Positions 13,136 to 51,174 of a stretch of DNA of 64,000 bases are shown one piece after another; positions within the stretch are counted from its first letter, which is position 1; the number at the start of each line of letters is the position of its first letter. The DNA comes from Opitutus sp. GAS368 (GTDB taxonomy: Bacteria; Verrucomicrobiota; Verrucomicrobiia; Opitutales; Opitutaceae), in assembly GCF_900104925.1 (NCBI RefSeq), contig NZ_LT629735.1:3703001-3767000 (forward strand), written 5' to 3'. The notes beneath the pieces are model-generated. The model had not been told where the DNA came from and ran no database searches. It worked only from the letters and a program-made list of their open reading frames with translations. Made by a program: the position numbers and the translations under genes.

Positions 13136-13225
13136 GGGTAGGGCAAGTCGTCCCGACGAGCCGCGGCTCAGCTGGAGCTGAGCCCTCCACCGATCCAAGC
13201 GGGATCAGCGATCCCGAGCTACAGT
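13136..13225. repeat. Composite intergenic inverted repeat (GTAGGGC family joined to another)
   Basis: The left half, GTAGGGCAAGTCGTCCCGAC through CCGCGGCTCA, matches half of the hairpin at 56546-56599 almost exactly when that is read on the opposite strand. The right half is different: a CAGCTGGAGCTGAG palindrome and GGGATCAGCGATCCC. So this is a chimera of two or three repeat kinds, sitting between alaS and a small gene. Confidence 0.75.
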
Positions 13226-15903
13226 TTCAGCGCGTCGGCGAGCTTCGTGGCGTCGCCGCCGCCACCCTGGGCATAGTCGGGCTTGCCGCCGCCCTTACCG
13301 CCGAGCTTGCCGGCGAGGCCGCCGATAAGTTTGCCGGCCGACTGCCCGGCCGTGATGGCCTCGGGCGAGCAATAGGCGACCAGGCTGACCTTGCCGTCCA
13401 TGAGCGCGCCGAGTTGCACCACGGCACCGGCGCCCACCTTGTGCAGCACCTGGCTGCCGAGCGAGCGGAGGGCTTCGGTGTTTTCGGCGGTGACGATGGC
13501 GGAGACCCACTTGAGGCCGTCCTTGGTCACAGCGGTGGTCGCGAGCTCCCCGGCGAGGCCGGCGGAAGCCTTGGCCTCGAAAGCCTTCAGCTTCTTCTCG
13601 AGTTCCTTCTGGTGATTGAGAACCGATTCCAGCTTGGCCGCGACGTCGTGCGGGCCGGAGCTGAGCCGCGCGTTGACGGCCTTGAGGGCCGCCTCCTCGT
13701 GGGCGATGAAGTCGAGCGCGGCCTGGCCGGCGACGGCCTCGATGCGGCGGGTGCCGGCGGCAATGGCCATCTCGGCGACGATCTTGATGACCCCGATCTC
13801 GCCGGTGGTGGTCACGTGCGTGCCACCGCAAAGTTCCTTGGAGAAGCCGCCGATGTCGACGAGGCGGACGCGCTTGCCGTATTTGTCGCCGAAGAAGGCG
13901 AGGACGTCGGCCGGCTTCTTGTCGTAGTCGATCTCCGCCGAGACGACGGGGGAGTTGTCGATGACCTTCTCGTTGATGAGCTGTTCGCACTCCTTGAGCT
14001 GGGCCTGGGTGAGCTGCTCGAAGTGGGTGAAATCGAAGCGCATCCGGTCGGGCGTCTTGTGCGTGCCAAACTGGCGGACGTGCGTGCCGAGCATCTTGCG
14101 CAGGGCCCAATGGATCAGGTGGGCGGCGGAGTGGTGGCGGTTGATGGCACGACGGCGGTTGAAATCGACGTGCAATGTGGCTGATGTCCCAACGGCCGGC
14201 ACGGAGGCCGGCCCTCCAATTTTGTGCAGATGACGGCCGGACTTGTCCTTGATCGTGTCGAGGATGTCGATCTTCACGCCATTGATCAGCGCATGGCCGG
14301 TATCGCCGACCTGGCCGCCCATCTCGCCGTAGAAAGGCGTCTGGTCGAAGACGAGATAGGTGTCCTTCTCGGTCTTCACCACGTCCACGAGCCTGGCGTG
14401 CGTCGCGTGGGTGGCATCGATCTCGTAGCCGACGAACTTGGTCGCATCGACCACGGCATCGCCCTCGGTGGAAGCGACGATGACATCGGTCTTCCGCGCT
14501 GCACGGCCGCGATTGCGCTGTTCTTCCATCAGTTCCTCGAAACCATCGAGGTCAGTCGACAGGCCGCGTTCCGCGGCGAGCAACTGGGTCATGTCGAGCG
14601 GGAAGCCGTAGGTGTCGTAGAGTTCAAAGGCCGCTTCGCCGGAGATTTCGCCGTCAGTGGCGGCCTTGTTGAAGATCTGGAGGCCTTTATCGAGGGTGCG
14701 GCCGAAGGATTCCTCCTCCGCGCGGATGGCCTTCTCGATCATGACGCGCTGGGTCTTGAGTTCGTGGAAAACGCCGCCGAGGGACACGACGACGGGCGCG
14801 ACGAGCTGCTCGAGGAAGCCGATTTTAAGGCCGAGGTTTTTTCGACCATACATGATGCCGCGGCGAAGGATGCGGCGGATGACGTAGTTTCGATCGGCGT
14901 TGCCGGGCAGAATGCCGTCGGCAATGGCGCAGCTTACGCAGCGGGCATGGTCGGCGAGAACGCGGAATGCGACGTCGACCTGTTGCTGTTCGCTCAGACT
15001 GGTGCGCTCAGTAGGGACGCTGCCTGTGTAGCGTTTCGGGCTGCCGGCCTGCGCGGTGAGCTGCTCGATTTCGTCGAAGGTCGGCTTGAAGACGTCGGCG
15101 TTGTAGTTCGACGGTTCGGCGGAGAAGTCCTTGAAGCCCTTCGTCGTGGCGTGGATGCCGGCGACGCGCTCGAAGCCCATGCCGGTATCGACGTGCTTGG
15201 CCGCGAGGGGCGCGAAAGTGCCGTCGGCGTTCGCGTTGAACTGGATGAAGACGTGGTTCCAGATCTCGATGCAGCGCGGCGACGAGCTGTTCACGAGCGC
15301 GCGGCCGGCCTTCTCGTCGTCGGAGGGCAGGAGGTTGAAATGGATCTCGGAGCACGGGCCGCAGGGGCCGGTGTCGCCCATCATCCAGAAATTGTCCTTC
15401 TTGTTGCCGTTGACGATGTGCACGGCGGGGTCGAGGCCGGCCGCCTTGAAGATGTCCGCCCAGATGTCGTAGGCCTCCTGGTCGAAGTCGGACGGGTCGC
15501 CCTTCTGCTTGTCGGGCGAGTAGACGGTGGCGAAAAGACGCTTCGGCGGGATGCCCCAGGCCTTGGTCAGCAGCTCCCAGCCCCAGGTGAGCGAGTCCTG
15601 CTTGAAGTAATCGCCGAAGGACCAGTTGCCGAGCATCTCGAACATCGTGTGGTGGTAGGTATCGAAGCCGACGTCCTCGAGGTCGTTGTGCTTGCCGCCG
15701 GCGCGGATGCATTTCTGGGTGTCGGCCACGCGTTTCCACGGGGCGGTCTGGTCACCGAGGAAGTAGGGCACGAACTGGTTCATGCCGGCGTTCGTGAACA
15801 GCAGGTTGGGGGCCGTCGGCATGAGCGAGGACGACGGCACGATGGCGTGCTGCTTCGACTTGAAGAAATCGAGGAACGACGAACGGATCTGGGCGGAGGT
15901 CAT
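13219..15903 (-). CDS. alaS: Alanyl-tRNA synthetase
   Basis: An 894-residue class II synthetase that charges tRNA-Ala. The catalytic core starts TSAQIRSSFLDFFKSKQHAI, with PSSSLMP, LLFTNAGMNQF and GDTGPCGPCSEI. The editing domain has the zinc-binding pair HHSAAHLIHW and ELCGGTHVTTTGEIG. A C-terminal DHHA1 domain follows, with a coiled coil and a Gly-rich end (GGKGGGKPDYAQGGG). Length is normal (E. coli 876). An odd feature is that a GC palindrome (14194-14213) is read in frame as GGPASVPAVG between the core and the editing domain. The start at 15903 matches the family; the frame is open upstream but reads through repeat sequence. Confidence 0.97.
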   Translation of the reverse strand: MTSAQIRSSFLDFFKSKQHAIVPSSSLMPTAPNLLFTNAGMNQFVPYFLGDQTAPWKRVADTQKCIRAGGKHNDLEDVGFDTYHHTMFEMLGNWSFGDYFKQDSLTWGWELLTKAWGIPPKRLFATVYSPDKQKGDPSDFDQEAYDIWADIFKAAGLDPAVHIVNGNKKDNFWMMGDTGPCGPCSEIHFNLLPSDDEKAGRALVNSSSPRCIEIWNHVFIQFNANADGTFAPLAAKHVDTGMGFERVAGIHATTKGFKDFSAEPSNYNADVFKPTFDEIEQLTAQAGSPKRYTGSVPTERTSLSEQQQVDVAFRVLADHARCVSCAIADGILPGNADRNYVIRRILRRGIMYGRKNLGLKIGFLEQLVAPVVVSLGGVFHELKTQRVMIEKAIRAEEESFGRTLDKGLQIFNKAATDGEISGEAAFELYDTYGFPLDMTQLLAAERGLSTDLDGFEELMEEQRNRGRAARKTDVIVASTEGDAVVDATKFVGYEIDATHATHARLVDVVKTEKDTYLVFDQTPFYGEMGGQVGDTGHALINGVKIDILDTIKDKSGRHLHKIGGPASVPAVGTSATLHVDFNRRRAINRHHSAAHLIHWALRKMLGTHVRQFGTHKTPDRMRFDFTHFEQLTQAQLKECEQLINEKVIDNSPVVSAEIDYDKKPADVLAFFGDKYGKRVRLVDIGGFSKELCGGTHVTTTGEIGVIKIVAEMAIAAGTRRIEAVAGQAALDFIAHEEAALKAVNARLSSGPHDVAAKLESVLNHQKELEKKLKAFEAKASAGLAGELATTAVTKDGLKWVSAIVTAENTEALRSLGSQVLHKVGAGAVVQLGALMDGKVSLVAYCSPEAITAGQSAGKLIGGLAGKLGGKGGGKPDYAQGGGGDATKLADALKL
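14194..14213. repeat. GC palindrome inside alaS
   Basis: The sequence CGGCCGGCACGGAGGCCGGC has arms GGCCGGC and GCCGGCC around a five-base loop when one further base is included. It is flanked by AACG and CCTCCAATT and is read in frame as Gly-Pro-Ala-Ser-Val-Pro-Ala-Val-Gly in AlaRS. Its style is that of an intergenic repeat and not of coding sequence. Confidence 0.6.
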
Positions 15904-16342
15904 GAAGCGGAGGACTGAGGACACCCTCCTTCGCCAAGGCTTCTGCCTTCGCTGAAGCCATGGCGGACAAGTCGGAGGGCAGGGAGAACTGAAGACAGAG
16001 GACGGGGTGCGGGAAGGCAAGTTGGAAGGATGGGATTCCCGGCCGGGGTGGTGAGCCACCAGGCAGCCCGGGATGCGGGCCGGTAGTGGGTCAGTTTGAT
16101 GTGGGTCGGGCTTTATGCCGACATTCCACGCGACCTGTCGGGGATAAACCCCGCCTACAACACCGAAGAAACCAAACTGACCCACTACCGGCGGGCGTGG
16201 ATGCTTGCGTTGGCCGGGGCTGCCCGCTATCCGTCATCCTGCGCGACGCAGACATGGCCAGCTCCTGCGTTTTGCCCGTGAAAAATTTCCTCCAGTCACC
16301 GCGGCGGTTCCCCGCCAATGCCCATCTCGCTGGAGGAGGGAC
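15904..16342. other. 439-bp intergenic region with a nested inverted repeat
   Basis: The gap between divergent alaS and the solute-binding-domain kinase. It holds the nested repeat at 16079-16190 and, at its right end, the strong ribosome binding site of the kinase. The part next to alaS (15904-16078) shows several short GC-rich self-complementary stretches (CCCGGCCGGGG near 16037) but no gene. Confidence 0.7.
16079..16190. repeat. Nested inverted repeat, 19-bp perfect outer arms
   Basis: Outer arms CCGGTAGTGGGTCAGTTTG (16079-16097) and its exact complement at 16172-16190. Inside lies an element GTCGGGCTTTATGCCGACA, then TGTCGGGGATAAACCCCGCC, then TACAA, which recurs at 54083-54142 without those outer arms. 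No gene lies inside. Confidence 0.9.
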
Positions 16343-18757
16343 ATGAAAGCGCGACGACGGCCGGTGATGCTGCTCCTTGGCCTGAGCGCGCTGGTTTTGG
16401 CCGTGTCAGCCGCAAGCGAGACCGGGCACCCGTTGCTGTTCGTGAGCGACGCCAGCTATCCGCCCATCACCTATCTGGACAGAGGGACGCCCAGGGGAGT
16501 GGCCGTGGACATCGTGCAGGCGCTCGGCCGGCGGATGCACCGCCCGATCGAGATCCGGATGATGCCATGGCAGGAAGCGCAGGACATGGTCCTGCGCGGC
16601 GAGGCGGACGCGTTGTTCCCGATGAGCATCACGGAAGCCCGCCGGCAGACCTATGACTTCAGCGAACCGCTGCTGGACCTGCAGTTCGCCATTTTCACCC
16701 GGGCTTCACGGGCCGGCATCGCCGGCATGGCGGATCTGCCTGGCCTGCGGGTGGGTGTCACCAGCGGCGGCTTGCCCCGGCAACTCCTGCAGCCGGACCC
16801 GCGCATCCGGCTGGTCATCGTCGAGGAGTATTCCGCGGGATTCCAAATGCTCAAGGACGGCAGGCTCGATGCGGTCGTCGCCGACCGCTGGGTCGGCACC
16901 TACGAACTGGCGGAACGCGGCATCGATGGCGTCAAGATCAGCCCCGAGCCGGTGGCGAACCTGCAGGGGGCCGTGGCGGTGAAGCGCGGCCGGGCCGCAG
17001 AACTGGCGGCCATCAATGCCGCGCTCCGGCAAATACGGGCCGACGGCACGCTCGCCCGCATCATCCAGGACTGGCAGCCGAAGGAGGTCCTCTTCCTGAC
17101 CCGCGAGCAAGTGAACCGCTGGGGCGCCGTCGCGGCTTTCGGCCTTCTGCTCCTGCTGCTGGGTGTGGTGGTGACCCGGGTGATCGATTTGAGGCGGAAG
17201 GTGGCGGCCCATCGCGCGGCCGAGAACCGCATCAACACCCTCAACCAGCGTCTGTCCCTTGCGACCCGGGCGGCGGGCATCGGCATCTGGGATTGGGAGG
17301 TGCCGACCAACGTTCTCATCTGGGACGATGAGATGCATCGCCTTTTTGGCTCGAAGCGGGAGAATTTCAACGGGGCCTACGAGGCGTGGGTGCGCGCCCT
17401 GCACCCCGCCGACCAGGAGCGGGCGCAGGCGGAGGTCCAGGATGCCTTGCGCAGCCGGAAACCATTCCACACCGAATTCCGGATCATCCGGGCCGACGGA
17501 GCCGTGCGCACGATCAAGGCGCTGGCCGAGGTGTTTGTAGGCCCCGACGGGCGGCCGCAGCGCATGGTCGGGGTGAATTACGACATCACGGAACAGAAGG
17601 AACTGGAGGAAAAATTTCTGCGGGCGCAGCGCCTGGACGCCATCGGCACCCTGGCCGGCGGCATCGCCCACGATCTGAACAACGTGCTGGCGCCGATCCT
17701 CACCGCGGTGCAACTGCTGCAGATGGACCTTTCACCCGAGCGGCGCGCGCGGCTGCTCGAGACACTCGAGAGCAGCGCGCAGCGGGGCGCCGGCATGATC
17801 CGGCAGGTGCTGATGTTCGTCCGCGGGGTCGACGGCGACCGGGTCCGGCTCAATCCGCCGGAGCTCGTGCGGGAGATCGAGCACATGATCCGGGACACTT
17901 TTCCCCGCGCCATCGTGATCGAGAGCGCCGTGGCGGCCGACTGCAGTCCCGTTCTGGGCGACGCCACGCAACTGCAGCAGGTCTTGCTCAACCTCTGCGT
18001 CAATGCGCGCGATGCGATGCCCGGAGGCGGCCGGCTCACCCTCATCGCGGCCAATGTCCCGGTGGACGCGTCCCAGGCCGGCCGATATCCCGGGGCCCGG
18101 CCCGGCCCGCACGTGCTCCTCCAGGTCACCGACACGGGCGGGGGTATACCACCGGCCATCAGCGCCAGGATTTTCGATCCCTTCTTTACGACGAAGGGCC
18201 AGGGCCAGGGCACCGGCCTCGGCTTGTCCACCGTGCAGGCCATCGTGAAAAGCCACGGCGGATTTGTGCAGGTTGACAGCGAACCCGGGCGCGGTTCGAC
18301 CTTCAAGATCCTCCTGCCCGCCGCCGGCGGCGAGACCGCTGAATCCGCGCCGCCCGCCAGCGAACCGCCGTCCGGCGCGCTGCCGCGCGGCAACGGTGAG
18401 CTGGTGCTGATCGTGGACGATGAGGAGACGATCCGCCAGGTGACCAAGAACACCCTGGAGGCCTTTGGCTACCGCGTGCTCCTGGCCCAGAATGGCGCCG
18501 AGGCGGTTGCGCTGTTCACGGAGCACGGCGACGTCGCGGTCGTGCTCATCGACATGATGATGCCCGTGATGGACGGTTCGACGGCGATCCTTGCGATGCA
18601 TCGCATCCGTCCGGACGCGCCGGTGATCGCCACCAGCGGGCTGACTTCGATGCGCGATCTCGCCGCGAGCATTCCCGGCAAGGTGAAGCATCACCTGCAA
18701 AAGCCCTATACCGCGGAGAAGCTGCTGCAAACGATCCACCAGGCGCTTCAAAGCTGA
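16343..18757 (+). CDS. Hybrid histidine kinase with periplasmic solute-binding sensor domain
   Basis: An 804-residue protein. A signal sequence (about 1-24) precedes a family 3 solute-binding domain (about 28-245; LFVSDASYPPITYLDRG, GVAVDIVQALG, SGGLPRQLL). These clamshells bind amino acids or similar small solutes. One TM helix (about 260-282) leads to a PAS domain, HisKA with H443 in GTLAGGIAHDLNNVLAPILT, HATPase_c (NLCVNARDAMPGGG, GTGLGLSTVQAIVKSHGG) and a receiver with D737 in VVLIDMMMPVMDG. The design resembles the BvgS/EvgS group but has one solute-binding domain. The ATG at 16343 follows GGAGGAGGGAC, a strong Shine-Dalgarno. No transporter is adjacent. Confidence 0.95.
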   Translation: MKARRRPVMLLLGLSALVLAVSAASETGHPLLFVSDASYPPITYLDRGTPRGVAVDIVQALGRRMHRPIEIRMMPWQEAQDMVLRGEADALFPMSITEARRQTYDFSEPLLDLQFAIFTRASRAGIAGMADLPGLRVGVTSGGLPRQLLQPDPRIRLVIVEEYSAGFQMLKDGRLDAVVADRWVGTYELAERGIDGVKISPEPVANLQGAVAVKRGRAAELAAINAALRQIRADGTLARIIQDWQPKEVLFLTREQVNRWGAVAAFGLLLLLLGVVVTRVIDLRRKVAAHRAAENRINTLNQRLSLATRAAGIGIWDWEVPTNVLIWDDEMHRLFGSKRENFNGAYEAWVRALHPADQERAQAEVQDALRSRKPFHTEFRIIRADGAVRTIKALAEVFVGPDGRPQRMVGVNYDITEQKELEEKFLRAQRLDAIGTLAGGIAHDLNNVLAPILTAVQLLQMDLSPERRARLLETLESSAQRGAGMIRQVLMFVRGVDGDRVRLNPPELVREIEHMIRDTFPRAIVIESAVAADCSPVLGDATQLQQVLLNLCVNARDAMPGGGRLTLIAANVPVDASQAGRYPGARPGPHVLLQVTDTGGGIPPAISARIFDPFFTTKGQGQGTGLGLSTVQAIVKSHGGFVQVDSEPGRGSTFKILLPAAGGETAESAPPASEPPSGALPRGNGELVLIVDDEETIRQVTKNTLEAFGYRVLLAQNGAEAVALFTEHGDVAVVLIDMMMPVMDGSTAILAMHRIRPDAPVIATSGLTSMRDLAASIPGKVKHHLQKPYTAEKLLQTIHQALQS

Positions 18758-18890
18758 GCCAGATTCTGGCAGTTGAAGTTCACGCCATTCGCCAGCGGCC
18801 CAGGGCCAGGTGGAGTGCGCTGGCCCCCGGCACGCTTCAGGGTGTTCGCTCCCCAACACGCTGGTTTGAGAGCGGCCGCCCGAAAGCGCG

Positions 18891-18909
18891 TTGAGGTCAA
18901 CGCGCTCGA
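18891..18909. promoter_or_regulatory. Palindrome GCGCGTTGAGGTCAACGCG, possible operator
   Basis: Arms CGCGTTGA and TCAACGCG around GG, lying in the gap before the XRE-receiver gene. XRE proteins often bind short palindromes near their own genes, so self-regulation is possible. There is no second copy to strengthen the case. Confidence 0.4.
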
Positions 18910-19201
18910 CCTTTAAGTGCGTTCACTTTCGAGTGAAAGGCGGTTTGACTGCAAGAGTCCGGCTGAGCGATTGAAAGGTTGGGGTGTCTAAGGCCGGAAG
19001 AACCTAGGTCACCACCTACTTGCCAACCGATGACAGAGGAATTATTCTGCGGCTACGTATACGATATAAGAATCGGGCAGCAAGACCCTGAATGCCCCCC
19101 TGATTCATTGCGGCTGCCAACGTGTGTGAGGCGATGCCGCACAGAAGCGGGAACAGGGTGCCGGTCCCAATTTGTCACTCATAGTCTATTGAAGCCATTG
19201 T

Positions 19202-19207
19202 TATAAT
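19202..19207 (+). promoter_or_regulatory. TATAAT -10 element just upstream of the XRE-receiver start
   Basis: A perfect -10 hexamer ending 10 bases before the GTG start at 19218. No good -35 lies 16-18 bp upstream (TCATAG there; TTGTCA at 19172 is too far). If used, the transcript would start within a few bases of the start codon. Confidence 0.45.
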
Positions 19208-19217
19208 ACCTGCGCAA

Positions 19218-19946
19218 GTGGCGAAAAAACAGAAAGTTAAAAAAGCTGAATCAGCCTTACAGACCAGGCTGGGGGCTACGGTCAGGAGCTATCGACAGCG
19301 TTTGGGCATCACCCAGGAGGAACTGGCTTGGCGCGCGGGAATGCACCGGACATACTTGGCCGATATTGAACGGGGGGCTCGCAATATCACCCTGCGCAGC
19401 GTCGCTAATCTGGCCCAGGCGCTGCAGGTTTCGGTGGAGGGATTGCTTCTCCACACGAACGGGGCCGAAGGATCGCCCGGACAGCGTGACGCGGACGGCT
19501 CGCTGGGCGAGATCCTGCTGGTAGAGGACAACCCGGATGACGTCGAACTGACCCGGCGTGCCTTCGCGCACGCCAAGATCACCAATCCCGTCAGGGTGAT
19601 GCGGGACGGCGAGGAAGCGCTGCAATACCTGTTCGGCAGCGGGCGCTACACGAACCGGGCCATCGTAATGCCGCAACTGGTGCTGTTGGACTTGGGACTT
19701 CCGAAAATTCCCGGGACCGAAGTGTTGCGGCAGATGAAAACGAGCAGGGCATTCCGCGATATCCCCGTGGTCATCCTGACCGATTCGCGCAAGGATGAGA
19801 ACATCATGGAGTGTAGCCGGTTGGGGGCCGCCCATTACATCATCAAGCCCGTCGAGTTTGAAAGCTTTGCCCGTGTTACCTCCCAAATGGATTTCCACTG
19901 GATCTTGCGGCGGCCCGAGGCCTCCGTGCCGTCCAATCCGGGCTAA
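19218..19946 (+). CDS. XRE-type DNA-binding domain fused to a CheY-like receiver
   Basis: A 242-residue protein. Residues about 13-68 are a helix-turn-helix of the Cro/CI (XRE) family (LGATVRSYRQRLGITQEELA, AGMHRTYLADIERGARNITL). Residues about 93-225 are a receiver of the Rcp1 type (ILLVEDNPDDVELTRRAF, D158 in LLDLGLPKIPG, IIKPVEF). The usual order in transcription-factor response regulators is receiver first and a different HTH class, so this order and pairing are unusual. It heads a signalling cluster and probably receives phosphate from the downstream kinases. The start is GTG at 19218; a TATAAT at 19202-19207 leaves only ten bases before it. Confidence 0.9.
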   Translation: MAKKQKVKKAESALQTRLGATVRSYRQRLGITQEELAWRAGMHRTYLADIERGARNITLRSVANLAQALQVSVEGLLLHTNGAEGSPGQRDADGSLGEILLVEDNPDDVELTRRAFAHAKITNPVRVMRDGEEALQYLFGSGRYTNRAIVMPQLVLLDLGLPKIPGTEVLRQMKTSRAFRDIPVVILTDSRKDENIMECSRLGAAHYIIKPVEFESFARVTSQMDFHWILRRPEASVPSNPG

Positions 19947-19955
19947 CCCCATCCC

Positions 19956-19973
19956 GCACCCGCTCGCGGGTGC
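19956..19973. other. Hairpin GCACCCGCTCGCGGGTGC
   Basis: A 7-bp stem with a CTCG loop, ten bases after the XRE-receiver stop codon. It could stop transcription or protect the mRNA end, but no T-run follows, so it is not a standard intrinsic terminator. Confidence 0.45.
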
Positions 19974-20189
19974 AACCAACCAAATTGCAAAGCAGTGTTT
20001 GCCTATGGGCGGCACCGGGCCATCATCGGCATCGGGCCAATCCTCGTTGCCACGTCAACTTGGTATGAGTGCCATTTCCATTTCCGATAGCCCGAAGGAG
20101 GTGACGGTCTGTCGTCCGCCTCTGTGGGGTGCTGGTGAAATCCGGCCGCGGCTGCTTCAGCCCGGCGGCTTTGCGGAGACCATCGCCTG

Positions 20190-22862
20190 ATGTCCGAGGA
20201 CACAAAGCTGCGGGAGACGCTGAAGGAGGTCGGTGACCTGAAGGCGGCGCTGGACGAGCACGCGATCGTGGCGATCACCAACCCGCAGGGGAGAATCACC
20301 TACGTCAACGACAAGTTCTGCGCGATCTCGAAGTATGCGCGCGAGGAACTGCTCGGGCAGGACCACCGGATCATCAACTCCGGCCATCACCCGAAGGAGT
20401 TCATCCGCGACCTCTGGACCACCATCGGCCACGGGCGCGTCTGGCACGGCGAGATCAAGAACCGGGCGAAAGACGGCACCTTCTACTGGGTGGACACGAC
20501 CATCGTGCCGTTCCTCGGTGCCGACGGCAAACCGCGGCAATATGTGGCCATTCGCGCCGACATCACCGCGCGCAGACTGGCGGAGGAAAACCTGCGGGCT
20601 TCGACCAAGGAGGTGCTCGACCTGAAAGCGGCGCTGGACGAGCACGCCATCGTCGCGATCACCGACCCGACGGGAAAAATCATTTATGTGAACGACAAGT
20701 TCTGTGCGATCTCGAAGTATGCGCGCGAGGAGCTGCTCGGGCAGGACCACCGCATCATCAACTCGGGGCACCATCCGAAGGAGTTCATCCGTAACCTGTG
20801 GACGACGATCGCCCACGGACGCGTGTGGCGCGGCGAGATCAAGAACCGGGCGAAAGACGGCACGTTCTACTGGGTGGACACGACCATCGTCCCGTTCCTC
20901 GGTGAGAACGGGAAACCCCGCCAGTATGTCGCCATCCGCGCGGACATCACTGAACGCAAACGGGTGGAGGAAGCCGCGCGGCAACTGGCGGCGATCGTCG
21001 AGTTTTCGGACGATGCGATCATGGGCAAAGACCTGCGCGGCATCATCACGAGCTGGAATGCCGGAGCGGAAAAGCTCTTCGGCTATGCGGCGGGCGAGAT
21101 GCTGGGCCAGCCGATCGCGCGCCTGATTCCGCCGAACGACCTCCAACCGGAGGAGGAAATTTTACGGCAGATCAAGCGCGGCGAAAGCGTCAGAAATTAC
21201 GACGCGGTCCGCATCGCGAAAGACGGCCGGGCGCTGGATGTCGCGATCACGGTTTCACCCATCAAGGATGCGACGGGCAACGTCATCGGCGCCTCCAAGG
21301 TGGCGCGCGACATCACCGAGCGCAAACGGGCCGAGGGAAGACTCCGGACCTCGACCAAGGAAGTGATCGATCTGAAGGCGGCGCTGGACGAGCACGCGAT
21401 CGTGGCGATCACCAACCCGCAGGGGAGAATCACCTACGTCAACGACAAGTTCTGCGCGATCTCGAAGTATGCGCGGGAGGAACTGCTCGGCCAGGACCAC
21501 CGGATCATCAACTCCGGCCATCACCCGAAGGAGTTCATCCGCGACCTGTGGACCACCATCGGCCACGGGCGCGTCTGGCACGGCGAGATCAAGAACCGGG
21601 CGAAAGACGGCACCTTCTACTGGGTGGACACGACCATCGTGCCGTTCCTCGACGCCGACGGCAAACCGCGGCAATACATCGCCATTCGCGCCGACATCAC
21701 CGCGCGCAAACTGACGGAGGAAAACCTGAAGGCTTCGACCAAGGAGGTGCTCGACCTGAAGGCGGCGCTGGACGAGCACGCCATTGTCGCGATCACGGAC
21801 GCCCGCGGGAAGATCACGTTCGTCAACGACAAGTTTTGCGCGATCTCGCAGTATGCGCGGGAGGAGCTGCTCGGGCAGGATCACCGCATCATCAACTCCA
21901 CTTTTCATCCGAAGGAGTTCATCCGCGGCCTCTGGACCACGATCGGCCATGGCAAGGTCTGGCATGGCGAGATCAAGAACCGGGCGAAGGACGGGACGTT
22001 CTACTGGGTGGACACCACCATCGTGCCGTTCCTGGGGGGCGACGGCAAACCCCGCCAATACATCGCCATCCGCGCGGACATCACCGAGCGGAAGAAGGCC
22101 GAGGATGCGGTGCGGCAGATGAACACGGAACTGGAACAGCGGGTGGCGGAGCGCACGGCCCAGCTGGAGAGCGCCAACCGGGAGCTGGAGGCGTTTTCCT
22201 ACTCGGTTTCGCACGACTTGCGGGCGCCCTTGCGCGCGGTGGACGGATTCTCCCAGGCCGTCATCGAGGACTTTGGGGCGCTATTGCCGGAGGAGGGCCG
22301 GCGCCAGTTGCAGACCATCCGTCATTCGGCGCAGCGCATGGGTGCGCTGATCGATGATCTGCTGGCATTCTCGCGGCTGAGCCGGCAGGCGCTGGCCAAG
22401 CGGACGGTGGACACCGGCAGCCTGGTGCGCGGTGCGCTGCAGGAGCTGGGGGCCCCGTGGCCGGGCCGGCGCGTCGAGATCCGCACCGCCGACCTGCCGT
22501 CGAGCGAGGGCGATGCCGCCCTGCTCAAGCAGGTCTGGCTGAACCTGCTGGCCAACGCGCTGAAATACACCCGCAAGCGCGATCCCGCCGTCGTCGAGAT
22601 CGGCTGCGTCGAGCGGCCGGAAGGTCCGGCGTTCTACGTCCAGGACAACGGCACGGGCTTCGACATGCAGTATGCGGGGAAGCTCTTCGGTGTCTTCCAA
22701 CGTTTGCACCGCATGGAGGACTACGAAGGCACCGGGGTCGGACTCGCCACCGTGCAGCGCATCATCCACCGCCATGGCGGCCAGGTGTGGGCGGAGGCGG
22801 TCGAGGATCGCGGCGCCACCTTTTTTTTCAGCCTCGGAGGAGGAAATTCCAACCATGAATGA
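20190..22862 (+). CDS. Soluble histidine kinase with five tandem PAS domains, phytochrome-type kinase core
   Basis: An 890-residue cytosolic kinase with no membrane segment. Four PAS modules are near copies of one another: they share [32 protein letters not shown] and [21 protein letters not shown] fifth, different PAS ([20 protein letters not shown]) sits in the middle. The kinase core has H675 in [20 protein letters not shown], the type found in phytochrome kinases, and HATPase_c motifs ([36 protein letters not shown]). It overlaps the Rcp-type regulator gene by 8 nt, so that regulator is the likely phospho-acceptor, as in phytochrome-Rcp pairs. The PAS ligand is unknown. Confidence 0.95.
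20238..22139 (+). repeat. Near-identical PAS-module array inside the kinase gene
   Basis: Equivalent CTGAAGGCGGCGCTGGACGA-type start points occur at 20238, 20622, 21372 and 21756. The spacing is 384 nt within each pair and 1134 nt between pairs (378 codons, in frame). The first and third copies differ at only about ten positions in 384 by eye. A different PAS module separates the pairs. Confidence 0.95.
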
Positions 22863-23307
22863 CACCCACGCCGTAGAACTCCTGCTGGTCGAGGACAACC
22901 CCCAGGATCTCGAGCTGGCGTTGCGGGCCCTCCGCAAAGCCAATCTCGCCAACCGCATCCAGGTCGCCCGCGACGGGGCCGAAGCCCTGGACTTCATCTT
23001 CGGCACGGGGCCCTTTGCCGGCCGGAACATCACCGACGGCCCCAAGATGATCCTGCTCGATCTGAAACTGCCGAAGGTCGACGGGCTGGCGGTGCTGCGC
23101 CGCGTCAAGGGCGATCCGCGCACCAAGGTCATCCCCATCGTCGTACTCACGTCGTCGAAGGAACAGCGCGACGTGGTCGAGAGTTACCAACTGGGGGTGA
23201 ACAGCTACATCGTGAAGCCGGTGAACTTCGAGCGTTTCGCCGAGGCCGTGCGCGACCTCGGCCTCTACTGGTTGCTCCTCAACCAGCCGCCGAAGGTCGA
23301 GGAATGA
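22855..23307 (+). CDS. Rcp1-type single-domain response regulator
   Basis: A 150-residue receiver with the extended form typical of phytochrome-coupled regulators: [18 protein letters not shown], a GTGPFAGRN loop, the phospho-Asp in [25 protein letters not shown] and [12 protein letters not shown]. No output domain. The ATG lies 8 nt inside the upstream kinase gene after GGAGGAGGAAA, indicating translational coupling, and the next kinase starts one nucleotide after its stop. It therefore probably moves phosphate between the PAS-array kinase upstream and the hybrid kinase downstream. Confidence 0.96.
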
Positions 23308-23308
23308 C

Positions 23309-26300
23309 ATGGGAACGCCGCTGAAACTGCTGATGGCCGAGGACAACCCCGCCGACGCCGAGCTGGTGCTGATCACGCTGCGCCAGGCCGGCTACAAGTC
23401 CGACTGGCGGCGGGTCGAGACCGAGGCGGATTTCCTTGGCGCGCTGCAGGACGATCCGGACCTGGTAATCTCGGATTACAGCATGCCGCGGTTCTCCGCG
23501 CTGCGCGCGCTCGAGTTGATCAAGGCGCGTCGTCCCGAAACTCCCTTCATCATCGTGTCCGGCACCATCGGAGAGGAAACGGCCGTGGAGGCGATGCGAC
23601 TGGGCGCGACCGATTACCTGCTCAAGGACCGGTTGGGCCGGCTCGGCCCGGCGGTGGCGCAGGCCATCGACCAGGCCCGGCTACGGCGGGAGCGCCGGCA
23701 AAACGAAGAGGCGCTCCGGAACAGTGAGGAGCGGCTGCGGATCGTGACCGCCAATGCCCGGGTCGGGCTGGTGATGGTCAACCGCGAACGACGCTATACC
23801 TTTGCCAACGCCGCTTACGCCGAGATTCTCGCCCTGCCTTCGCCGGACATCGTCGGGCAGCGCGTGGCGGATGTGCTCGCCCCGCTTTATGAGCAGCAGA
23901 TCCGGCCCCGCCTTGACCGGGCCTTTGCGGGGGAACGCGTCGCCTACGAGCTGAGCCGGCCGACCCCGGATGGCCTCCACCACTATGCGGTCAGGTATGA
24001 GCCGACCAAGGGGGGCGGGGAGGTGTCGCTGGTGGTCGTGGTCATCACCGACATCACGGAGCGGAAGCGGGCGGAGGAATCAGTGCAGGCGAGCGAAGCG
24101 CGCTATCGCACCTTGTTCGAGTATGCGCCCGACGGCATCGTCATCGCCGATGCCGAGAGCCGTTACCTCGATGCCAATGCGAGCGCCTGCCGCATGTTCG
24201 GTTACAGTCGCAAAGAATTCATCGGGCTGCACGCCTCCGACATCGTGGTGGCGGCGGAAGTCCCCCATATCGCGCCGGCGTTGGCAGGGATCAAGGCCAC
24301 CTCAGACTACCATCGCGAGTGGCAGTTCCGGCGCAAGGATGGGTCGACCTTCTCCGCGGAAGTCATGGCCACCAAGATGCCCGATGGCAACCTGCTGGGG
24401 ATGATCCGGGACATCACCGCGCGCCAGCTGGCGGAGGCCGCGCTCCAGCAACGCGAGGCCGATTTCCGGGTGCTGTTCGCCAGCAACCCGATGGCGATGT
24501 GGGTCTACGAACTGGACACCCTCCGCTTCCTGGCGGTGAATGACGCGGCCGTGCTGCACTACGGCTACACCCGCGAGGAATTCCTCGCCATGACGATCAA
24601 GGACATCCGGCCCGCCGGGGACATGCCCACGTTATTGCGCTCGATGGAGCGGCGGCCGCAGGGGGTTGATGTGTCCGGCGTCTGGCGGCACCGGCAGAAG
24701 ACCGGGAAAATCATTTTGGTCCATATCACCTCCCATCCGATCAGCTTTCAGGACCGGCCGGCCGAGCTGGTGCTGGCGCAGGATGTGACTGCACAGCACG
24801 AGAGCGAGCGGGCGCTCAAGGCGAGCGAGGAGCACTTCCGCAGGCTGATCGAGAACGCCTCGGACATGATCACCGTGATCGACGAGGCCGGGGTCGTTCG
24901 GTTCCAGGGGCCTTCCACCCAGCGCCTGCTCGGTTACGTCGCGGACGAAATGGTGGACCGGCCGGCGGGCGAATTCATCCATCCCGACGATCACGACAAG
25001 GTCGGCGAGTCCGTCCGGCGCGCGCTGGCGGGGGAGCGAAAACCCATCCCGGTGGAGTTTCGCATCCGGCACCATGATGGCAGCTGGCGTATCTTCCAGT
25101 CCTTCGGCCAGCGTATGGCCGAGGTCGCCGGCAACGCACAGATCGTGGTGAATTCCCGCGACATCACCGAGCAGAAGAAACTGGAGGAGCAGTTCCTGCA
25201 CGCCCAGCGCATGGAGGCCATCGGCACTCTGGCCAGCGGCGTCGCCCATGACCTGAACAACATCCTGGCCCCGATGTTGATGGTGGCCGGCATTCTCAAG
25301 TTGCGCCGCAATGCCTCCCCCAAGGACATCGAACTCCTCTCGATCATCGAGAGCAGTGCATTGCGCGGGGCCGGCATCATCCGGCAGCTGCTGTCTTTCA
25401 GCGGGAGCTTTTCCGGCGAACGGGTCACCCTGCAGCCCAAGCACCTGATCCACGAGATGACCAAGATCATGAGGGAAACCTTTCCCCGCAACATCGCCAT
25501 CGTCGAGTCCGTGCCGTCCGGCCTGTGGACGGTCGAGGCCGACGCGACGCAATTGCACCAGGTCATCCTGAATCTGTGCGTGAATGCTCGTGACGCCATG
25601 CCGGCGGGCGGAACGCTGACAGTGGAAGCGGGCAACGTCACGGTGGGAGAGGGGGCCGGGACGGCCGCGATCGATCCGGCGGCCAAGCCGGGTCCCTACG
25701 TGCTGTTGCAGGTCAAGGACACCGGGACCGGCATCCCGCCGGAGATCATCAACCGGATATTCGATCCCTTTTTCACGACCAAGGGCGCCGCCAAGGGCAC
25801 CGGCCTGGGCTTGTCAACCGTGATCGGAATCATCAAGGGACATGGCGGTTATGTCAGGGTTTACAGCGAGCCAGGTCATGGCTCTGCCTTTCATGTCTAC
25901 CTGCCTGCCACGGAGGGGACGGGCAGCTCCCGGCGCAGCGACACCGTCCCGCCGCTGGCCCGCGGGCACAAGGAGCAGATCCTGGTGGTGGATGACGAGG
26001 AATTCATCCGCGAAGCGACGCGCAGCTTTCTCGACAAGCAGGGCTACCAGGTGCTGCTAGCGGCGACGGGGGAAGAAGCGGTCAAGGTGTTCCTCGAGCA
26101 CCAGGGCACGGTGCGCCTGGTCCTGACCGATATCATGATGCCGGGCATGGACGGGCTGGCCCTGATCCGGGCGCTCCGGGTTCTTGCGCCCACCATCCCC
26201 ATCATTGCCACCAGCGGATTGGATCAGAACCAGAACGCCGCCGAATTCTCCGCGCTCGGGGTCAGGAAAATGCTCGCCAAGCCAGTTACCCCGACCCAGT

Positions 26301-26359
26301 TGCTGCAGGCTGTCGCCAGCAGCCTAGCCCCGCCAGTCCCGCCACAGGCTAGCCCGTAA
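23309..26359 (+). CDS. Receiver-PAS-kinase-receiver hybrid histidine kinase
   Basis: A 1016-residue soluble protein. An N-terminal receiver (D56 in DLVISDYSMPRFSAL) is followed by four PAS domains (about 140-620, separated by DITERK-type ends), HisKA with H647 in IGTLASGVAHDLNNILAPML, HATPase_c (NLCVNARDAMPAGG, GTGLGLSTVIGIIKGHGG) and a C-terminal receiver (D941 in LVLTDIMMPGMDG). Receivers at both ends make it a natural phosphorelay integrator: the first can accept input from the kinase two genes upstream, the last can pass it on. No HPt domain is visible in the cluster. One base separates it from the Rcp-type gene, so they are one operon. Confidence 0.95.
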   Translation: MGTPLKLLMAEDNPADAELVLITLRQAGYKSDWRRVETEADFLGALQDDPDLVISDYSMPRFSALRALELIKARRPETPFIIVSGTIGEETAVEAMRLGATDYLLKDRLGRLGPAVAQAIDQARLRRERRQNEEALRNSEERLRIVTANARVGLVMVNRERRYTFANAAYAEILALPSPDIVGQRVADVLAPLYEQQIRPRLDRAFAGERVAYELSRPTPDGLHHYAVRYEPTKGGGEVSLVVVVITDITERKRAEESVQASEARYRTLFEYAPDGIVIADAESRYLDANASACRMFGYSRKEFIGLHASDIVVAAEVPHIAPALAGIKATSDYHREWQFRRKDGSTFSAEVMATKMPDGNLLGMIRDITARQLAEAALQQREADFRVLFASNPMAMWVYELDTLRFLAVNDAAVLHYGYTREEFLAMTIKDIRPAGDMPTLLRSMERRPQGVDVSGVWRHRQKTGKIILVHITSHPISFQDRPAELVLAQDVTAQHESERALKASEEHFRRLIENASDMITVIDEAGVVRFQGPSTQRLLGYVADEMVDRPAGEFIHPDDHDKVGESVRRALAGERKPIPVEFRIRHHDGSWRIFQSFGQRMAEVAGNAQIVVNSRDITEQKKLEEQFLHAQRMEAIGTLASGVAHDLNNILAPMLMVAGILKLRRNASPKDIELLSIIESSALRGAGIIRQLLSFSGSFSGERVTLQPKHLIHEMTKIMRETFPRNIAIVESVPSGLWTVEADATQLHQVILNLCVNARDAMPAGGTLTVEAGNVTVGEGAGTAAIDPAAKPGPYVLLQVKDTGTGIPPEIINRIFDPFFTTKGAAKGTGLGLSTVIGIIKGHGGYVRVYSEPGHGSAFHVYLPATEGTGSSRRSDTVPPLARGHKEQILVVDDEEFIREATRSFLDKQGYQVLLAATGEEAVKVFLEHQGTVRLVLTDIMMPGMDGLALIRALRVLAPTIPIIATSGLDQNQNAAEFSALGVRKMLAKPVTPTQLLQAVASSLAPPVPPQASP

Positions 26360-51106: not shown

Positions 51107-51174
51107 GGCGGGACTATCAGTCCCGCGGGATATCAGTTTCGCTGCTCCAGATTCGCGGGACTGATAGTCCCGCC
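51107..51174. repeat. 21-bp perfect inverted repeat between topB and fba
   Basis: Arms GGCGGGACTATCAGTCCCGC plus one base at 51107-51127 and the exact complement at 51154-51174. Each arm contains the smaller palindrome GGGACT-ATC-AGTCCC. It may serve as a bidirectional mRNA end for topB. Confidence 0.9.

Follow-up and report, generated by a model that had tools for sequence, protein, structure and literature searches.

Previously, operators of the C.PvuII type, the sites bound by restriction-modification controller (C) proteins, have been described as GACT-tat-AGTC, in operons that are commonly leaderless according to the cited part of the report (PMC4824078). The distal-site oligonucleotide of C.Esp1396I starts with ATGTGACTTATAGTC in the cited section of its report (PMC3758141). 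Among signalling proteins, phytochrome-partner regulators dimerise mostly via the alpha4-beta5-alpha5 face, with AtRR1 using a C-terminal arm, as stated in the portion of the source cited here (PMC8292422). In Caulobacter, the relevant part of one report describes XRE factors activated by the regulator SpdR in a two-component pathway (PMC6530869).

The present study concerns one gene in a 64,000-nucleotide stretch of Opitutus sp. GAS368 DNA (the window; Table 1), whose product carries an XRE helix-turn-helix (HTH) ahead of a receiver. From its sequence and that of its relatives, this XRE-receiver protein is best read as a two-component regulator whose DNA-binding head is of the controller-protein type and which would act mainly on its own promoter.

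Results

A sequence-only reading of the window had placed an XRE HTH in front of an Rcp-type receiver, and this architecture holds. One continuous ORF carries both Pfam domains above their gathering scores (HTH_3, 7.6e-14, residues 22-75; Response_reg, 1.2e-16, residues 99-216), with HTH_31 also matched. Since the fusion is seen again in relatives, it is neither a chance reading nor a local frameshift. Pfam and fold identify a receiver, and the alignment shows in it the expected acidic pair (E103 and D104) together with D158, T188 and K210; we take the roles of these residues, with D158 as the phospho-acceptor, from receiver biochemistry. The nearest solved relatives of the receiver in a sequence search were bacteriophytochrome-partner regulators (PDB 5brj, 2.8e-31; 5ic5, 9.2e-30; RcpA, 4.7e-20), and a fold search again placed phytochrome-partner regulators at the top. 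The description "phytochrome-partner type" suits the receiver but not the neighbouring kinases, in which Pfam at E<=0.001 found only PAS, HisKA, HATPase and receiver domains, odd sub-threshold matches aside, and no GAF-PHY photosensor or other phytochrome domain.

The head of the protein had been called phage-repressor-like. Its fold is indeed of the Cro/CI type, but among solved structures its sequence has its nearer matches in restriction-modification controller proteins (C.BclI, 2.9e-12, with 24 of 60 aligned residues identical; C.Esp1396I, 4.3e-10) rather than in the phage 434 repressor (8.6e-4); C.AhdI is also among the closest solved sequences. An AlphaFold2 model built from 12 sequences (mean pLDDT 78, pTM 0.55) gave two domains with a low-confidence linker between them, in an arrangement that the model does not fix, with the five helices of a Cro/CI HTH at residues 9-29, 33-40, 44-51, 59-68 and 73-78 and the receiver at 98-223. 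Both domains are present in all 12 aligned full-length family members. R44, Y46, E51, R52, G53, R55 and N56 of the HTH and L100, E103, D104, T188 and K210 of the receiver are invariant among them, and D158 is kept in 11 of the 12.

Table 1. Coordinates of the features discussed, in window positions
Feature	Position	Strand	Remarks
Palindrome GCGCGTTGANNTCAACGCGC	18885..18906	.	Dispersed repeat
Candidate operator TGTCACTCATAGTCTATTG, C-box-like	19173..19191	+	Conserved before family genes
Extended -10 element TGTTATAAT	19199..19207	+	7 nt after operator
XRE-receiver protein, 242 aa	19218..19946	+	Single uninterrupted ORF, GTG start
Cro/CI-type HTH, controller-protein-like	19281..19442	+	Residues 22-75, Pfam HTH_3
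Linker	19443..19511	+	Residues 76-98; 82-94 modelled below pLDDT 50
Rcp-type receiver	19512..19865	+	Residues 99-216: E103, D104, D158, T188, K210
Multi-PAS HisKA histidine kinase, candidate partner	20190..22862	+	Pfam
Stand-alone Rcp-type receiver protein	about 22855..23307	+	Overlaps kinase gene end; start chosen from translation
Hybrid kinase REC-PAS-HisKA-HATPase-REC	23309..26359	+	Pfam

How widely this domain order occurs was a question raised with the sequence-only reading. In the window's own genome, 33 places resemble the protein, and both domains are spanned only at the gene itself. In the same family, at least 26 of 252 genomes carry the HTH-first fusion (rows with E<=1e-48, at most 11 candidates scored per genome): 21 have a match to the receiver end and 5 (G036, G151, G166, G215, G226) have short-receiver copies only. 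Besides these, G110 holds a broken copy with a 157-aa frame, whose shortness is not due to a contig end. Distant members exist as well. A phylum sample of 288 genomes gave two non-family carriers (G427 and G440), a motif-only scan of 286 class genomes (see below) added G556 and G571, and the best 80 of 308 relatives in a contig scan included five fusion loci (L024 to L028) from Opitutaceae, Lacunisphaera, Chthoniobacteraceae and one record titled Proteobacteria bacterium. The contig and genome scans apparently overlap, as L024, L025 and L027 seem to be the same contigs as G273, G007 and G151.

In a receiver tree built on few columns and supported by SH-aLRT only, the 27 XRE-receiver rows call for two changes of label, both forced by starred branches. 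The intruder is a receiver of G224 (L244, minus strand, C64:114-560), which belongs to the XRE-receiver clade and lies in a 296-aa frame with another N-terminus and no HTH. A single origin of the fusion with one later replacement of the head is therefore plausible. A phage origin was rejected, as none of the 50 loci from a viral scan matched past query residue 125, and the ORF at a plasmid match (H3, listed at 80% cover) is an OmpR-type regulator. The papers listed by literature searches showed no XRE-receiver fusion; an earlier mention, domain databases included, is possible.

The gene does stand, as had been proposed, at the head of a kinase cluster, being followed by a PAS kinase, an Rcp regulator and a hybrid kinase; this order recurs in relatives, L028 included. 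The PAS repeats of the first kinase look near-identical to one another in translation. Between alaS and the XRE-receiver gene lies a further hybrid with SBP_bac_3, PAS, kinase and receiver parts (16205-18757). By Pfam, the neighbours at 13219-26359 are alanyl-tRNA synthetase, kinases and receivers, with no restriction-modification locus. In relatives, the scan of the flanks covered similarity to kinases, receivers, XRE proteins and alaS; within the fetched flanks, alaS is divergent and upstream in 10 of 34 loci, and in several relatives it directly adjoins the XRE-receiver gene.

A kinase-like ORF begins within 3.5 kb downstream in 21 of 33 assessable family genes. Kinases of relatives were recognised by phmmer similarity to the window kinases, with Pfam used for the G556 kinase. 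A row was assessable if it had a kinase within 3.5 kb or more than 3 kb of downstream DNA, tandem copies counting separately; 7 of the 40 rows, with less than 3 kb and no kinase seen, were omitted, and kinase-bearing rows were kept however short. Among the assessable genes, 19 have an intact receiver and a kinase, 2 an intact receiver without a kinase, 2 a defective receiver with a kinase, and 10 a defective receiver without one. The intact genes without a kinase are that of G015, whose contig stops inside a PAS ORF, and G225b, with changed HTH residues, while both defective genes with a kinase come from one G045 locus. In G225 (L231), decay runs the other way: the receiver residues are intact, the HTH residues are changed, and 9.5 kb of downstream DNA holds no kinase. 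Receiver decay with kinase loss was rejected as proof of partnership: the tree gives 3 independent pairs and p 1, and with so few pairs we keep the association as a hint only.

A common upstream block, first visible in 17 members, contains the motif TGTCACTYATAGTCTRTTG, which occurs with at most 3 mismatches within 130 nt 5' of 31 of the 40 family genes (best 19-mer taken, fragments G110 and G215b included). Such matches number 32 in 777,520 strand-bases of family loci, both strands counted, one of them away from family genes. The site precedes 18 of the 19 genes with an intact receiver and a downstream kinase. More than 3 mismatches separate it from the best site of G112 (4, with the -10 in place), G176 copy 2 (8), G225b (4), G225c (11), G215b (8) and G166 (4), and of the upstream copies of the tandem pairs in G151 (9), G215 (4) and G226 (6).

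As the motif was derived from these same loci, independent tests matter. The plain 19-mer with at most 3 mismatches gave 55 matches in 95 genomes versus 52 for a reversed control, so it is not specific alone at that threshold; all eight matches with 0 or 1 mismatch sit at XRE-receiver genes. When operator and extended -10 were combined at fixed spacing (1 mismatch), 22 matches were found in 252 genomes versus 1 for the control, and 21 of these are at XRE-receiver genes. The motif-only 17-mer (1 mismatch) gave 13 matches in the class genomes versus 8 for the control: 3 at XRE-receiver genes, 2 of which had not entered the motif definition, one 5' of the G556 kinase, and 9 others. The remaining combined-pattern match, at G015:C177 (L267), has the operator-like CTTTGATAGTCTATTG and an extended -10 at equal spacing before a 230-aa ORF without a Pfam match, which is a possible further target. 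The own genome holds a single site with at most 3 mismatches. One site per genome would give such a switch little reach, and its true output may have been missed.

The site resembles a C-box. Its position 4 is C in 28 and T in 3 of the 31 cases, where C-boxes have G; with Y as T, TGTCACTYATAGTC differs from the published start of the C.Esp1396I oligonucleotide, as given in the cited section, at position 4 alone. Paired C-boxes were looked for, and one related site only lies before the XRE-receiver gene. In G026 (L119:1548-1856), a stand-alone XRE protein adjoining an alaS-like gene is preceded by a 2-mismatch operator, which TGCTAGGAT follows at a distance of 7 nt. TGTGACT[C/T]ATAGTC C-boxes also lie before other ORFs in L127, L131 and L132 (G014, G012 and G011), and the fragments beside them look like controller-protein starts.

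The palindrome first noted as the target (18891-18909) fared worse. It spans 18885-18906 and is a dispersed repeat: the own genome has it 9 times exactly and at 58 sites when up to 3 mismatches are allowed, where the control gives 7. The conserved candidate operator is the one in Table 1. Sites with GACTNATAGTC were not taken as targets. Of 36 such places in the own genome, 35 begin with G, 34 of these reading GACTGATAGTC (control 4), and those inspected are REP-like inverted pairs about 47 bp apart. One such inverted pair on GACTGATAGTC, a REP-like element found in many places in the genome, lies at 51112-51169 of the window.

Of the 31 promoters that bear the motif, 23 have the extended -10 exactly 7 nt past the operator. 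It is absent there in the truncated G045 copy, the upstream G036 copy, G111, G223, G427, G440, L026 and L028, and likewise in G556 and G571. In promoters with both elements, the centre of the operator lies 21 bp 5' of where the -10 hexamer begins, at about -33. The operator covers about -41 to -23, and the first in-frame ATG, GTG or TTG follows the hexamer by 2-11 nt (10 nt in the window gene; 2-3 nt in G143 and G225a, where a later start is equally likely). Transcription begins about 7 nt after a -10 hexamer. A start codon so close behind the -10 would leave almost no leader; the XRE-receiver mRNA is probably leaderless or nearly so.

Since a Cro/CI HTH and a receiver with an intact phospho-site are conserved together beside kinases, control by phosphorylation is the natural inference. 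The controller-like head would bind the operator as a dimer, and the protein would regulate mainly its own near-leaderless transcript, probably along with the downstream kinase genes. The PAS kinase, or the hybrid kinase, would phosphorylate D158; the phosphorylated receiver would dimerise and raise operator occupancy, which would most likely repress the promoter, because the operator sits over the -35 region. We hold this full scheme of a phosphorylation-controlled self-regulator to be probable, with moderate confidence, and the sign of regulation is its least certain step.

The bound protein might instead activate, replacing a missing -35 in a positive feedback like that of distal-site C proteins. 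A sigma-70 scan found no -35 paired with the extended -10 of the gene, its only 9-of-12 pair lying at 19020-19048, and promoter and terminator scans returned nothing for this promoter; C proteins do activate from a distal site, in the part of the report cited (PMC6237814). The site is centred at about -33, however, which places it over the -35 region; a proximal site in this place represses, according to the cited section of the published work (PMC3758141). Moreover, an extended -10 can function without a -35, and an activating protein is on balance unlikely, though we take it seriously.

Truncated copies bear on the role of phosphate. In the nine copies of G036, G151, G215, G166 and G226 and in one G045 copy, the receiver ends just past strand 4. 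All ten lack K210 and the alpha4-beta5-alpha5 face; D104 is lost in 10 of 10 and D158 in 7 of 10. With the dimerisation face missing, these copies are not expected to respond to phosphorylation by that route. Together with G225c, they fall on one side of a starred branch, which suggests about one truncation event. Tandem XRE pairs in G036, G151, G215 and G226 (L239, L234, L235 and L237) have a perfect operator before the downstream copy and a degenerate one before the upstream copy. At the G045 locus (L240), a full-length XRE-receiver whose phospho-acceptor Asp is changed to Glu stands beside the truncated copy and a hybrid kinase.

That these truncated paralogues keep the HTH (alignment of five), with perfect operators retained in four tandem pairs, and that G026 has a stand-alone HTH protein behind its site, would suit a protein whose binding is phosphate-independent or phosphate-inhibited, either released from the operator by phosphorylation or using its receiver as a mere phosphate sink. 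We consider this quite unlikely, as 19 of the 21 kinase-linked genes have an intact phospho-site, both exceptions being at one locus. It is improbable that the upstream conservation reflects promoter ancestry or another factor, even though the motif overlaps the core promoter of related loci, some with alaS divergently upstream, because distant members keep it with the -10 spacing lost, the 7-nt spacer sequence is not conserved, and both the kind of site and the HTH agree with C proteins.

Under the phosphorylation-controlled scheme, a kinase may be a second target even where it is unlinked. In G556, the XRE-receiver gene and hybrid kinase are on contig 52, and the PAS kinase and Rcp regulator on contig 56. 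At E<=1e-80, nothing else in that genome matches the PAS kinase of the window (64-69% identity). A 2-mismatch operator (C56:9513-9531) lies 5' of the G556 kinase, about 1.07 kb before the part resembling the window kinase and some 0.2 kb ahead of the chosen start, inside the same open frame, with no -10 at +7. Being a single case, from a scan with a control of 8, it is suggestive only.

Discussion

A possible history, offered tentatively, is that a restriction-modification controller protein was captured with its operator by a two-component system. The fusion would have arisen about once, mainly in the Verrucomicrobia lineage, and placed a C-protein feedback loop under the gating of a kinase, with the partner kinase itself under its control even at an unlinked locus; one clade would then have lost the receiver output face and returned to a phosphate-independent tandem pair. 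An XRE-receiver regulator of this kind would join restriction controllers and two-component signalling in one protein. Its site is a defined 19 bp and few targets are predicted, which opens to direct testing the idea that phosphorylation governs a feedback loop of the Cro/CI type. Placing the HTH first is also a conserved design of the lineage rather than a chance feature of a single genome.

In the Caulobacter SpdR pathway, XRE factors also belong to a two-component route, and the cited part of that report mentions no receiver fusion (PMC6530869). Rcp1, AtBRR and RtBRR resemble the XRE-receiver protein in receiver sequence and fold and in having a histidine kinase alongside, but their solved forms are receivers without a DNA-binding head, and the kinases here are PAS kinases without a phytochrome domain. 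Regulators of the OmpR, NarL and NtrC types likewise combine a receiver and a DNA-binding domain, in the opposite order and with an HTH of another family. The C.PvuII and C.Esp1396I controllers share with the XRE-receiver protein the HTH sequence, a C-box-like operator before their own gene and, probably, a leaderless mRNA. In contrast to them, the XRE-receiver protein has a fused receiver and a single operator at about -33 with position 4 changed, and its neighbours in the window are kinases and alanyl-tRNA synthetase rather than restriction and methylase genes.
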